DNA of 64,000 nt from an uncultured Clostridia bacterium (GTDB lineage: Bacteria; Bacillota; Clostridia; Christensenellales; Borkfalkiaceae), in assembly GCA_947589085.1 (NCBI GenBank), contig CANPZD010000002.1, positions 1 through 64,000 on the forward strand, written 5' to 3'. Of this stretch, positions 5,532 to 10,862 are shown in pieces. The notes under the pieces were generated by a model. The model made no database searches, was not told the DNA's origin, and saw only the letters and a list, made by a program, of their open reading frames with translations. A program made the translations under genes and the position numbers. The stretch's first letter is position 1; the number at the start of each line of letters is the position of its first letter.

Positions 5532-6065
5532 ATGGGTTGGAATTTTTGGGCGTTGCTCAGTAACGATTCCGGAGACAAGACCGGAGAAACGGGCGGCGGC
5601 GGTGCGCAGAACTGGATCGTTTGGGTCGTGCTTGCCGTTGCGGTGGTGCTGATTATCGTCTGGTTCATCTTTTCGAACAGAAAGAACAAGTCCCGCCAAA
5701 AGGAATATGCGGAGCAGATGGAAGCGATCCGTCCCGGCAACAAGGTCAAGTCGACGGGCGGATTGTGCGGCGTCGTCGTGGAAGTGTGCGACGATAACAC
5801 CGTGATCATCGAAACGGGAAGCGAAACGACCGGGAAGTCCTATTTCAAGCTGGACAAGGACTCCATTTATCAGACGGACGCAAAAGGCGCGACGCAGATC
5901 GCGCGCGAGCAGGCGGAAGCGGCCAAGAATGCCGAAAAAGCGACCAAGGCAGAAGGCGCCGCGCCCGAAAAATCCGAGGCGCCCGAAAAAGCCGAAGCGC
6001 CCGAAAAACCGGCGGAAGATGCGCCAGAGGCGCCCGCGGAAACGCCCGTGCAGAAAGACGAATAA
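5532..6065 (+). CDS. yajC: Preprotein translocase subunit YajC
   Basis: YajC is a small inner-membrane partner of SecDF and SecYEG. The 177-residue product has one transmembrane helix (about residues 21-42, WIVWVVLAVAVVLIIVWFI), then the cytoplasmic YajC domain with MEAIRPGNKVKSTGGLCGVV. It is longer than the usual ~100 residues because of a C-terminal tail of about 60 residues made of Ala-Pro-Glu-Lys repeats (APEKSEAPEKAEAPEKP), which is probably disordered. The ATG follows GGAGAT. Its position upstream of scfA, scfB and secDF matches Clostridial gene order. Confidence 0.9.
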   Translation: MGWNFWALLSNDSGDKTGETGGGGAQNWIVWVVLAVAVVLIIVWFIFSNRKNKSRQKEYAEQMEAIRPGNKVKSTGGLCGVVVEVCDDNTVIIETGSETTGKSYFKLDKDSIYQTDAKGATQIAREQAEAAKNAEKATKAEGAAPEKSEAPEKAEAPEKPAEDAPEAPAETPVQKDE

Positions 6066-6511: not shown

Positions 6512-6540
6512 TTGCAAAATTCTTTCATGCGTTGTATAAT
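6512..6540 (+). promoter_or_regulatory. Sigma-A promoter for scfA
   Basis: TTGCAA (6512-6517) and TATAAT (6535-6540) have 17-bp spacing, just after the stop codon of the upstream gene. scfA and scfB therefore probably have their own transcript. Confidence 0.8.
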
Positions 6541-6567
6541 GGAAAAAAAGCATTCAGGAGTACATTC

Positions 6568-6723
6568 ATGATCAAAACGATCGCAAAACCCGCCGAGAAA
6601 AAAACGACAGGCTGCGGCGAATGCAGGAGCACCTGCCAGTCCGCATGCAAAACGAGTTGCACCGTAGGCAATCAATCCTGCGAGCGCGTCACGCGCGAGC
6701 AGAAAATCGAAGAGCGGAAATAA
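6568..6723 (+). CDS. scfA: SCIFF (six-cysteines-in-forty-five) ribosomal precursor peptide
   Basis: This 51-residue peptide has six cysteines clustered in the second half: C-x2-C, then TCQ, ACK, SCT and SCE (TTGCGECRSTCQSACKTSC and QSCE). That is the defining pattern of SCIFF, a precursor found across Clostridia whose cysteines are cross-linked by the neighbouring radical SAM enzyme. The N-terminal leader MIKTIAKPAEKK would be the recognition segment. The track start at 6532 overlaps the -10 box. The ATG at 6568 has AGGAG upstream and yields the expected size. The biological role of mature SCIFF is unknown. Confidence 0.93.
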   Translation: MIKTIAKPAEKKTTGCGECRSTCQSACKTSCTVGNQSCERVTREQKIEERK

Positions 6724-6786
6724 AGCGTTCAAGCACGATCGGGAAGCGGCGCGATGCGTCGCTTTTTCCCGTGTTTGCCGAGTCTT

Positions 6787-8094
6787 ATGATCCACGTATT
6801 TTCTTTTCACGATACATATTATCTCTATGATACGGGCAGCGGCAGTCTGCATCTGTGCGACGAGAAAACGGCGCGTTACTTTTCCGGCGAGCCCGTAACG
6901 CTCACGGAAGAAGAACTTGCGCAGATCGCGGAACTTGAACGTCAAGGTCTGCTCAATGCGCCCGAAACGCAGGCGCGCCCGATCAAGTCGAACGAGATGA
7001 AGGCGCTGTGCCTGCACGTGTCGCACGATTGCAATCTGCGTTGCCGCTATTGCTTTGCAGACGAAGGCGCATACCATTCCGTTCGGGAAGTGATGAACTT
7101 TCAGACGGCAAAAGCCGCCATCGACTTTCTGTTGGAACAGAGCGGAAAACGCCGCGTCCTCGAAGTCGACTTTTTCGGCGGCGAACCCCTCATGAATCTC
7201 GACGTCGTAAAAAAGACGGTGTATTATGCCAAGGAAGAGGGGGCGAAGCGCGGCAAGAAATTTTTATTCACCACGACGACGAACGGACTTCTGCTCGACG
7301 ACGAGACCATTCGTTTTTTCAACGAAGAGATGGAAAACGTCGTTCTCTCCCTCGACGGCAGGAAGGAGATCCACGACGCCGTGCGCAAAACCGTGAACGG
7401 CAGGGGAAGTTTCGACGCCGTCATCGAAAAGGTCAAAAAATTCGTCAGGGCGCGCGGGGACAAGCACTACTATGTCCGCGGCACGTTTACGGCGAAGAAT
7501 CTCGATTTTTCCAAAGACGTGCTCTTTCTTGCGGACAACGGATTCGACAGCATCTCTCTGGAACCCGTCGTCACCGAGATCCCCGATCTTCAGATTAAAG
7601 AGGAGCATCTGCCCGCGATCGCAAAGGAGTACGAAACGCTCTGCGAAGAATACGTCAGGCGCGAGGCTGAGGGAAAGGGCTTTTTGTTCTTTCATTTTCA
7701 GATCGATCTCGAAGGCGGGCCGTGCCTTGCCAAGCGCGTTTCGGCGTGCGGCGCGGGAAACGAATATTTCTCGGTCGTCCCGAACGGCGACATCTATCCC
7801 TGCCACCAGTTCGCGGGGGACAAAGACTTCCGCATGGGCAACGTGTTCGAAGGGAAGATCGATCCCGTTCTGCGCGCGAAATTTGCGTCGAGCTGCCTGT
7901 TCACGCGCAAAAAATGCGGCGACTGTTTCGCCAAATTCATCTGCTCGGGCGGGTGCAGCGCAAACAATTACCACTACTGCGGCGATATCGACGAACCCTA
8001 CCCCATGACGTGCGCGATGATGAAAAAGCGCATCGAATGCGCGATGCATGTTCTTGCCGAACGCAAAGCGCGCGAAAAAACGCAGAAAAATTAA
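6787..8094 (+). CDS. scfB: SCIFF maturase, six-Cys SPASM-type radical SAM protein
   Basis: The 435-residue enzyme is expected to form thioether links from the ScfA cysteines. An N-terminal region (residues about 1-70, HVFSFHDTYYLYDTGSGSLHLCDE) resembles a precursor-recognition domain. The radical SAM motif CNLRCRYC follows and then FFGGEPL. The C-terminus holds the auxiliary-cluster cysteines (CGAGNEYF, YPCHQF, KKCGDCFAKFICSGGC and MTCAMM). The ATG at 6787 gives the family start (MIH), while the track start at 6754 adds 11 atypical residues. It lies 63 nt after scfA. A family-standard length and intact motifs suggest it is active. Confidence 0.95.
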   Translation: MIHVFSFHDTYYLYDTGSGSLHLCDEKTARYFSGEPVTLTEEELAQIAELERQGLLNAPETQARPIKSNEMKALCLHVSHDCNLRCRYCFADEGAYHSVREVMNFQTAKAAIDFLLEQSGKRRVLEVDFFGGEPLMNLDVVKKTVYYAKEEGAKRGKKFLFTTTTNGLLLDDETIRFFNEEMENVVLSLDGRKEIHDAVRKTVNGRGSFDAVIEKVKKFVRARGDKHYYVRGTFTAKNLDFSKDVLFLADNGFDSISLEPVVTEIPDLQIKEEHLPAIAKEYETLCEEYVRREAEGKGFLFFHFQIDLEGGPCLAKRVSACGAGNEYFSVVPNGDIYPCHQFAGDKDFRMGNVFEGKIDPVLRAKFASSCLFTRKKCGDCFAKFICSGGCSANNYHYCGDIDEPYPMTCAMMKKRIECAMHVLAERKAREKTQKN

Positions 8095-8227: not shown

Positions 8228-9826
8228 ATGGGCAAGAAGAAATCGGCACTGTTTCTCGTGTTGGTCACCGTATTGCTTTTGGGGCTGTGCTTTATGTGCA
8301 CGACGTCCTTTTTGTACGGCGGCTACAAGGGATTCTATTCCGTACCGAGTATGACGCAGAAAGACGCGCTGTTGGGCAACGGATTTGCGGAGGGGTATCG
8401 CACCCAAGGCAATTCGATCTCCTATTACGGCGGCGGCTACACCACGGTGTACTATCCCGAAGGCGTGATCACCGAAAAAGAATATCAGGATAGTCTCGCT
8501 TCGCTGCAGGCAGCGGCGGATGAATCCGGAAAAGGCTCCGGCGACGAGACGCCCGAGGAGAAGGCGCTCCGCGAGTACCGGGATTCTTATATCAAGATCG
8601 ACGGCAGCACGTTCCGCTTCAAGGCGGCCAAGAAATACGATCCCGACGACGCGGAAAACAGCGGCGCCGTGACTTCCGACGGCGCGGTGATCGAGGAATT
8701 CCAAACCGCGTTCGACAATGCGGTCGCGCAGCTCAAACAGCGCGTAAGCGAACTCGATCTCGAACACGCGCGCATCGACGTCGTGAACGGCTATGGCGTA
8801 CAGGTGTTTGTTCCCACGCTTTCCAGCAAGGCCGCGCAGGTGAGCGTGTTTGATTCCCTCGGGCACGTCGGTGAAGTTACCGTGAGCTACGGGAGCGATG
8901 AAGCGAGCGCGACGCCTCTTGCGATCGCCAAAGACGAAACCGTCCGCGACTATGTGAAGGGCGCTTATGCGATCTCGAACGCGGGCACGACTGCGGTCGC
9001 CCTGCGCTTGACCAAGGCCGGCCAGAAGGCGATCTCCGATTGGACTTCCGCAAACGACGGTTCGCTGTACATCAGCGTCGGCGGAAAGGCGATCGTCAAT
9101 CCTTCCTATCAGACGTCGGACAGCGCTACGATCGGCAGCACGCTGTACATTACCCGCACCGATTTTACGAAAGATTCCGCCAAGGCCATCGCCCTGACGA
9201 TCGATTCCGCCCTCAACGGCAAACAGACCGATCTTACTTTCTCGATGGGCGACGTCTACCGTCAGAACGCGCTCTTCGGCGATCTGGCTCTTACCCTTTG
9301 CTATGCGGCGTTCGGCGTTGTGACCCTTGCGATGCTGGTGTTCTTCTTCGTCCGCTATCGCCGGCTCGGATTCGTGCATCTCTACACGTTTCTCATTTAT
9401 CTGTTTCCGATGATCCTCCTTATCTGGGGAATTCCTTTCCTGCATATCGGGATCGAGACGTTCCTTGCGGTCCTTCTCGGCATGGTGCTGCTTTCGGTTT
9501 CCAATATCGTCACCTACGAGAGCGCGCGGCGCGACGTCTTTCAGGGCAAAACCGTGGCGACAAGTATCAAGAACGGCTACAAGAAGTGTTTCTGGGGACT
9601 GTTCGATCTGCACATCATTGCCGCGCTGGCCGCCTTTGTCACGTATTTCATCGCAACGACCCAACTTGCGACGTTCGCGTTCACGTTCGGGATCGCCGCC
9701 GTTCTTTCGGGACTTTGCTCGCTTGCGATCGGCCGCTTCCTTTGGGCGACGATGATGTCTTTCTCCAAGAAAAAAGCAGAGTTCTGTCATTTCAAAGTCG
9801 ATGAGGGGGCGCAGAACAATGACTAA
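8228..9826 (+). CDS. secD: Divergent protein translocase subunit SecD
   Basis: The 532-residue protein has SecD topology: one N-terminal helix (residues about 6-28), a large extracytoplasmic domain (about 30-350), then a cluster of five C-terminal helices. The segment NIVTYESARRDVFQGKT (N426 on) aligns with the SecD TM4-loop motif NVIIFERIREEL..GKS, which identifies the family. Two hallmarks are lost. The N-terminal GLDLQGG motif is not recognisable, and the VDAN motif reads SVSN (423-426), which replaces the proton-path aspartate (D340 in Thermus SecDF) with V424. It overlaps secF by 8 nt and has a strong AGGAGGAGG ribosome-binding site. It may be a PMF-independent or specialised SecD. Confidence 0.82.
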   Translation: MGKKKSALFLVLVTVLLLGLCFMCTTSFLYGGYKGFYSVPSMTQKDALLGNGFAEGYRTQGNSISYYGGGYTTVYYPEGVITEKEYQDSLASLQAAADESGKGSGDETPEEKALREYRDSYIKIDGSTFRFKAAKKYDPDDAENSGAVTSDGAVIEEFQTAFDNAVAQLKQRVSELDLEHARIDVVNGYGVQVFVPTLSSKAAQVSVFDSLGHVGEVTVSYGSDEASATPLAIAKDETVRDYVKGAYAISNAGTTAVALRLTKAGQKAISDWTSANDGSLYISVGGKAIVNPSYQTSDSATIGSTLYITRTDFTKDSAKAIALTIDSALNGKQTDLTFSMGDVYRQNALFGDLALTLCYAAFGVVTLAMLVFFFVRYRRLGFVHLYTFLIYLFPMILLIWGIPFLHIGIETFLAVLLGMVLLSVSNIVTYESARRDVFQGKTVATSIKNGYKKCFWGLFDLHIIAALAAFVTYFIATTQLATFAFTFGIAAVLSGLCSLAIGRFLWATMMSFSKKKAEFCHFKVDEGAQNND

Positions 9827-10862
9827 ATTGAGATCCAACAAAGTATTTGCAATCTTCGTTGCGCTGTCCGTCGCGGTCATTGCCGCGGGAATCATCTTGT
9901 ACGCGCTCATGGGATTCAACTATGCGCAGGACAAGCCCAAGGCATATGTTGTGGAAATTTCTTACGGCGCCACCGTGGTGAACGGCGAGGTCTCCGACGG
10001 CGTTTCCGCCGAGGATTATTTGCAGGAAAAATGCGAAGAGATCTTCGAACAGCAGGGGCTTCGCTATACGGATAAAACTTCGCTGGAAGGCGTTTCCGAC
10101 AGCGGCTCGGGATTCAGTCCCAACGAAAACGGCGGCGTGCGCTACACGTTCTCCGCCGACAGCGACGTGGAAAAATTCGGCGCCGCGCAGACGGCCGTGG
10201 AAGCGTTCCTTGCCGCCGAGACCGCGCCCGCCGTTGCAAACGGAATGGTCGTCGTAAGTTATGCGCCCGTTTCCAATCTGGCTTTGACGAAAGCCGCATG
10301 GCGCGGCGCGATCGCGATCGCCGTCGGCGCGATCGTGGCGCTTGCGTATCTTACCATACGCTTCGGCGTCAGCTGCGGCGTGGCCGGCCTTGTGTGCTGC
10401 GCGCACGACGCGCTGTTTACCGCGGCGTTCTTTGCCTTGACGCGCATTCCTCTGTTCTCGTTCGCGCCGCTACTCTATGCGGCGGTTGCGGCTCTGCTCT
10501 CCGTGATCCTTTGGACGATCGTTTGCATTGTGTACCGTACGGGCAAAAAGGATCCCGCAAACGCGGGACTGAACGCTTCAGCGCTCACCGACAAGGCGCT
10601 GTCATCTTGCTGGAAATACGTGCTCTGTGCGGCGGCGGCCGTGATGGCGGTGATTGCGGTTCTGGGCCTTGTGGCGGTTGCGGGAACGCGTTCCCTCGTC
10701 CTGCCCGCGCTGATCGCGGCGCTTGCGCCCGTGTATTCGTCGCTCGTGCTCGGGCCGCGCGTATTTGTGCCGTTGCGCACGAAGTTCGATCGGCGGCGCG
10801 CCGATAAGAAAGGCGGCTATTTTGCGAGGAAGAAGAAAGCGGAAACCCAAACCAAGGAGTGA
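9819..10862 (+). CDS. secF: Divergent protein translocase subunit SecF
   Basis: The 347-residue protein has an N-terminal helix (residues about 9-31), an extracytoplasmic domain (about 35-160), and five C-terminal helices. The stretch AYLTIRFG...AHDALFTAAFFAL (about 177-207) matches the SecF TM2-TM3 region and supports the assignment. The TM10-type motif SLNDTIVVFDR is degenerate (SVILWTIVCIVYR), so the conserved Asp is W232, and the TLSRT arginine position is Ser/Cys (263-264). The ATG at 9819 overlaps secD and has GAGGGGG upstream. The track's 9801 start would run through that site. The tail is strongly basic. Confidence 0.8.
   Translation: MTKLRSNKVFAIFVALSVAVIAAGIILYALMGFNYAQDKPKAYVVEISYGATVVNGEVSDGVSAEDYLQEKCEEIFEQQGLRYTDKTSLEGVSDSGSGFSPNENGGVRYTFSADSDVEKFGAAQTAVEAFLAAETAPAVANGMVVVSYAPVSNLALTKAAWRGAIAIAVGAIVALAYLTIRFGVSCGVAGLVCCAHDALFTAAFFALTRIPLFSFAPLLYAAVAALLSVILWTIVCIVYRTGKKDPANAGLNASALTDKALSSCWKYVLCAAAAVMAVIAVLGLVAVAGTRSLVLPALIAALAPVYSSLVLGPRVFVPLRTKFDRRRADKKGGYFARKKKAETQTKE

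Follow-up and report, generated by a model that had tools for sequence, protein, structure and literature searches.

The window (the whole stretch of DNA that was analysed, 64,000 nucleotides) carries secD and secF as adjacent genes on the + strand, in the order tgt-yajC-(membrane protein)-SCIFF peptide-SCIFF maturase-secD-secF-recJ-relA. SecD (8228-9826, +; 532 aa) comprises an N-terminal transmembrane helix (TM), an extracytoplasmic P1 domain and five C-terminal TMs, and lacks the proton-relay Asp. SecF (9819-10862, +) is 347 aa long when read from MTKLRS, with a start that overlaps the end of secD; an alternative in-frame ATG lies upstream, at 9801. YajC, a known partner of SecDF, is encoded in the same gene neighbourhood (5532-6065, +; PF02699, 51 bits, over the cut-off), and its C-terminal tail is long and rich in Ala, Pro, Glu and Lys. 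The neighbourhood also holds a SCIFF-type Cys-rich peptide, GCGECRSTCQSACKTSCTVGNQSCE, at 6532-6723 (+), and the radical SAM maturase of this peptide at 6754-8094 (+; TIGR03974, 552.7 bits, over the cut-off), which lies directly 5' of secD.

Descriptions of SecDF present it as a proton-driven motor with essential relay residues, which pulls exported proteins out of the cell. The window SecD matched the NCBIfam model TIGR01129 (E 3.7e-18, under the model cut-off), NF046001 and SecDF models, the latter two also under the NCBIfam cut-offs, and phmmer matched it to E. coli SecD (5MG3) and Thermus SecDF (3AQP). SecF matched PF02355 with 39.1 bits, over the cut-off, and TIGR00966 with E 6.1e-12, under the cut-off. 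The two structure models, which AlphaFold built from three-sequence alignments, were poor (pLDDT 52 and 58), so residue depth was inferred from the alignment and no residue distances were used. Foldseek searches with these low-confidence models placed SecDF 5XAN/5YHF on top for SecD (best E 3.6e-10) and ranked SecDF first for SecF. A topology of one N-terminal TM, an extracytoplasmic domain and five C-terminal TMs per subunit was consistent with hydropathy and with the secondary structure of the same models. By homology, topology and gene adjacency, the window pair belongs to the SecD/SecF family.

The relay residues in E. coli and Thermus numbering are D519/D340 in SecD, and D213/D637 and R247/R671 in SecF; we checked the numbering in PDB alignments, where Thermus D340 is the Asp of VDGN, D637 the Asp of SIND and R671 the Arg of TLSRT. 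SecDF proton transport and conformational change, including the P1 movements, depend on D519 and R247 (review PMC8669966; see also PMC9508474). As D519 is needed for proton transport, a SecDF without it would most simply be uncoupled. In the literature that we searched, which did not extend to the primary Tsukazaki papers, we found nothing that directly describes a natural relay loss.

A reading made from the sequence alone (hereafter the sequence-only reading) had reported that all three relay residues were lost together. For SecD, the change of Asp to V424 (GTT, 9497-9499, +) was borne out: V424 aligned with E. coli D519 in a MAFFT alignment of family SecDs, and phmmer and profile alignments matched the part of TM4 in which it lies to the Thermus D340 region. 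For SecF, the helix stretch ALLSVILWTIVC contains no acidic residue, and D637 therefore has no replacement in any register; this part of the earlier claim stood, but the assignment to W232 did not stand alone, since L231 or W232 (10509-10514, +) occupies the register of D637 (E. coli D213) depending on the alignment. The placement of Ser/Cys 263-264 at the R671 site was not upheld. The basic residue K266 (10614-10616, +) occupies this site (E. coli R247) in the phmmer alignment against 3AQP (WKYVL), or stands just before it in the MAFFT alignment, which puts Y267 there. The K266 position was basic in all nine SecFs compared (seven genus genomes and the two closest MAGs). Of the residues that mark a proton-driven motor, the SecD relay Asp is replaced by V424 and the SecF relay Asp is absent, though the latter is absent from canonical relatives too.

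Several other residues are conserved in the clade of the window genus (clade A, described below). D460 (9605-9607, +), an acidic TM5 residue that the sequence-only reading had left out, corresponds to E. coli D555 and is D or E in 37/37 clade-A SecDs. H462 (9611-9613, +) is specific to clade A (H in 30, Y in 6 and C in 1 of the 37), the site being Asn in 28/28 canonical SecDs of the family. K448 (9569-9571, +), in the TM4-TM5 cytoplasmic loop, is newly fixed in clade A (K in 36, R in 1 of 37) and variable in canonical relatives, as is the SecF motif R209-I-P211 (10443-10451, +; R in 37/37, P in 36/37). E410, which sits where SecD TM4 reaches its outer end and is kept in eight of nine genus-level SecDs, does not occupy the relay position.

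The MAFFT, phmmer and profile alignments ruled out a misalignment masking an acidic residue in SecD TM4 or the SecF helix; none of them placed an acidic residue in the SecF helix or at the SecD TM4 relay site, an outcome that had been named as grounds for refutation. Sequencing error was likewise ruled out by the identical state in independent assemblies. The same state was found in the seven genus genomes and two further MAGs, which is more than chance or sequencing error would give, and the earlier view of a lineage change instead of a misassignment held. Alignment of related SecDs and SecFs, one of the checks proposed at that stage, confirmed the SecD Asp loss as a lineage feature. Another, a search of the genome for a second canonical secDF, gave a single PF02355 (SecD/SecF C-terminal family) match in the whole genome (1.38 Mb, 96.4% complete), namely the window SecF; the window SecD is too divergent for this model. 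This ruled out a second copy, and the window SecDF is the only one of the organism.

The comparison of SecD and SecF covered 79 family genomes from 18 genera and, in addition, two MAGs, with a species tree built by FastTree from 21 proteins of the ribosomal-protein region. The SecD relay Asp was kept in 35/79 family genomes and lost in 44/79. It was lost in all seven genera of clade A (g1, g3, g5, g8, g10, g11 and g12; the window genus and six others), with V, I, A, L, G, S, F or T in its place, and kept in all six genera of clade B; clade C was mixed. Assuming canonical outgroup families and no regain, this corresponds to about four SecD Asp losses in the family, a number counted by inspection on a tree with some weakly supported deep nodes. 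In four clade-A SecDs, the N426 column or its neighbour is acidic, near the lost relay Asp.

The SecF D637 site was A, N or S in every clade-B member. In the other families of the order, the 30 canonical SecFs that scored best, which do not form a random sample, had N at this site in 17 cases and D in 13; the 17 with this natural D637N state retain the SecD Asp, FDR and R671. SecF D637 is a poor marker. Because the site is already A, N or S in relatives with otherwise canonical SecDF, the SecF change preceded the SecD loss. The three residues were accordingly not lost together as first proposed, given this earlier replacement and the basic residue that persists at or beside R671.

Within the order, canonical and weak or degenerate SecDFs are both present in families f4, f11, f17, f23 and f25, and probably f27, and family f9 has degenerate SecDFs only, within the sample. 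In family f10, no SecD or SecF was found in 11/11 genomes, each at least 93% complete; the few weak PF02355 or SecF-profile matches there were other RND-like proteins, such as a 1403-aa frame, and the entire family is apparently without SecDF. Across the class, 38/195 genomes had no PF02355 match.

Evolutionary rate was taken as the distance between members of a genus, scaled to that of the ribosomal proteins and summarized as the median of genera, and clades A+C were compared with clade B by the Mann-Whitney test. The relative distance in A+C was higher than in B for the SecD TM region (5.75 vs 2.07, 2.8-fold, P = 0.0007), SecF (9.78 vs 3.65, 2.7-fold, P = 0.0007) and SecD P1 (2.2-fold, P = 0.0007). 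SecY showed no difference (1.67 vs 1.52, P = 0.21). The dN/dS values (Nei-Gojobori) were 0.13-0.27 in clade A, 0.18-0.38 in clade C and 0.04-0.24 in clade B, and are approximate because dS exceeded 0.5 in all pairs and often 1 (>0.7 in every A or C pair). Values of 0.13-0.38 in A and C indicate that the genes are still under selection, and the reading frames were uninterrupted in the family genomes. Constraint on SecD and SecF is relaxed yet still present.

The conservation of individual sites was also redistributed. In clade A, the V424 column (the old D340 site) ranked 144 of 169 TM columns, and the top-ranked SecD columns were G440, K448, Y451, R503, T442, D460 and H462. Fixed or nearly fixed in A but variable in B were SecD K448 and SecF R209, P211, P313 and R162 (MTKL numbering; 215, 217, 319 and 168 from the upstream ATG). 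Constraint in clade A has shifted to other sites and has not simply eroded.

Since the SecD Asp loss is real, is a feature of the lineage and is accompanied by no second canonical copy, the pair is best read as a SecDF that lacks the known proton relay. We lean, at slightly better than even chances, towards an uncoupled SecDF retained as an accessory factor, its Asp-Asp-Arg relay having been dismantled in its clade. The residue losses and their recurrence, the single copy, the faster evolution with remaining selection and the shift of conserved sites are observed directly. In this account, the SecF Asp was lost first, in an ancestor with the SecD Asp still intact; the SecD Asp then went at the base of the seven-genus clade to which the window genome belongs, with several further losses elsewhere. 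Most likely, the protein has stopped acting as a proton-driven motor, and we infer that it works without proton flow. The P1 and P4 domains are kept, and contacts with SecYEG, YajC and YidC presumably so. Its role might be passive, with the emerging substrate held and released by thermal motion and SecA action instead of proton-driven P1 swings. Such an accessory SecDF would persist under purifying selection, and this path can end in gene loss. However, the invariantly acidic D460 and nearly invariant H462 of clade A leave a protonatable pair in the membrane, a basic residue persists at or beside R671, and the newly fixed residues suggest a specific function over simple passivity. It is conceivable, at somewhat less than an even chance, that this is a clade-specific SecDF with shifted key residues that is selected across seven genera and exports by another mechanism, either without ion flow or by a new TM5 Asp-x-His path.

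A rewired relay would carry protons (or sodium) via SecD TM5 Asp460-x-His462, and SecF Lys266 might stand in for Arg671. D460 (acidic 37/37) and H462 (His or Tyr 36/37) hold ranks 6 and 7 of 169 in clade A despite fast evolution elsewhere, the H462 site is N in all 28 canonical family members, and K or R stands at or beside the R671 column in 26/35 clade-A SecFs. We nevertheless regard this rewiring as unlikely: D460 is conserved in canonical SecDs as well and does not have to represent a new relay, the Asp loss in clade C members came without a gained His, D460 and K266 lie near predicted cytoplasmic helix ends, where basic residues are common, and the structure models are of low confidence. 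Gene decay, in which SecDF is dispensable in these anaerobes and the proteins are stages before loss, would fit the acceleration of both subunits, the repeated Asp losses in the family with further ones in other families of the order, the absence of both proteins from f10 and the genomes of the class without a PF02355 match. It is doubtful all the same, as the intact reading frames, dN/dS well below 1 and newly fixed clade-A sites speak for a gene that has stayed functional in all seven genera. The two- to threefold acceleration and the SecDF-free family argue for relaxed constraint no less than for a machine built to run without PMF. The earlier proposal of a SecDF that works without proton flow therefore stood in part: the known SecD relay Asp is gone and there is no second copy, but relaxed constraint is at least as well supported.

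A low proton motive force in the organism is a very improbable cause of the loss of proton coupling. The window genus is apparently mostly without rotary ATPase: the window genome and five of its six genus relatives (G000, G027, G042, G055, G066 and G075 in all) gave no hit for F-type subunit a, V-type subunit I or the rotary c subunit. Of these six genomes, all but G075 also have no Rnf match, and all have a membrane pyrophosphatase; in the genus as a whole, 6/7 genomes lack Rnf. That pyrophosphatase, present in all seven genus genomes, speaks against the explanation. Rotary ATPases occurred in 25/44 Asp-lost vs 25/35 Asp-kept family genomes (P = 0.24), and Rnf was commoner where the Asp was lost (27/44 vs 12/35; P = 0.02, relatedness ignored). 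Loss of the PMF machinery as the cause thus found no support, its family-wide presence failing to track the SecD Asp loss.

Among relatives, the relay Asp was lost repeatedly and independently, yet the gene was mostly retained, which provides a natural test of the need of SecDF for proton flow. Lineages without the central Asp but with a selected gene may serve as natural variants that separate proton-driven from proton-independent roles, and the canonical SecDFs of the order with Asn or Ala at SecF D637 suggest that not every SecDF needs the SecF Asp.

Compared with known systems, the clade-B sister genera resemble the window in family, single copy and adjacent secD-secF. They differ in keeping SecD VDAN in 26/28 and the Asp in 28/28, SecF FDR, and R or K at R671 in 25/28, with only SecF D637 replaced (A/S/N). 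Among characterized proteins, Thermus thermophilus SecDF (3AQP), the 5XAM/5XAN SecDF and the E. coli protein (5MG3) are the top fold and sequence matches. They share with the window pair the RND-type 6+6 TM topology, the P1 and P4 domains, adjacent secD-secF with yajC nearby, the GKT...GYK cytoplasmic loop and the TM5 Asp. In contrast to them, the window proteins have Val for the SecD relay Asp, no SecF relay Asp, a Lys or shifted basic residue at the Arg site and His for the TM5 Asn, and their scores fall far under the SecD and SecF model cut-offs. To the divergent SecDFs of NCBIfam NF037998 ('SecDF, variant type'; E 6.8e-13) and the MPN396 family NF045752 (E 1.3e-4), the window SecD showed weak matches, far under the cut-offs.
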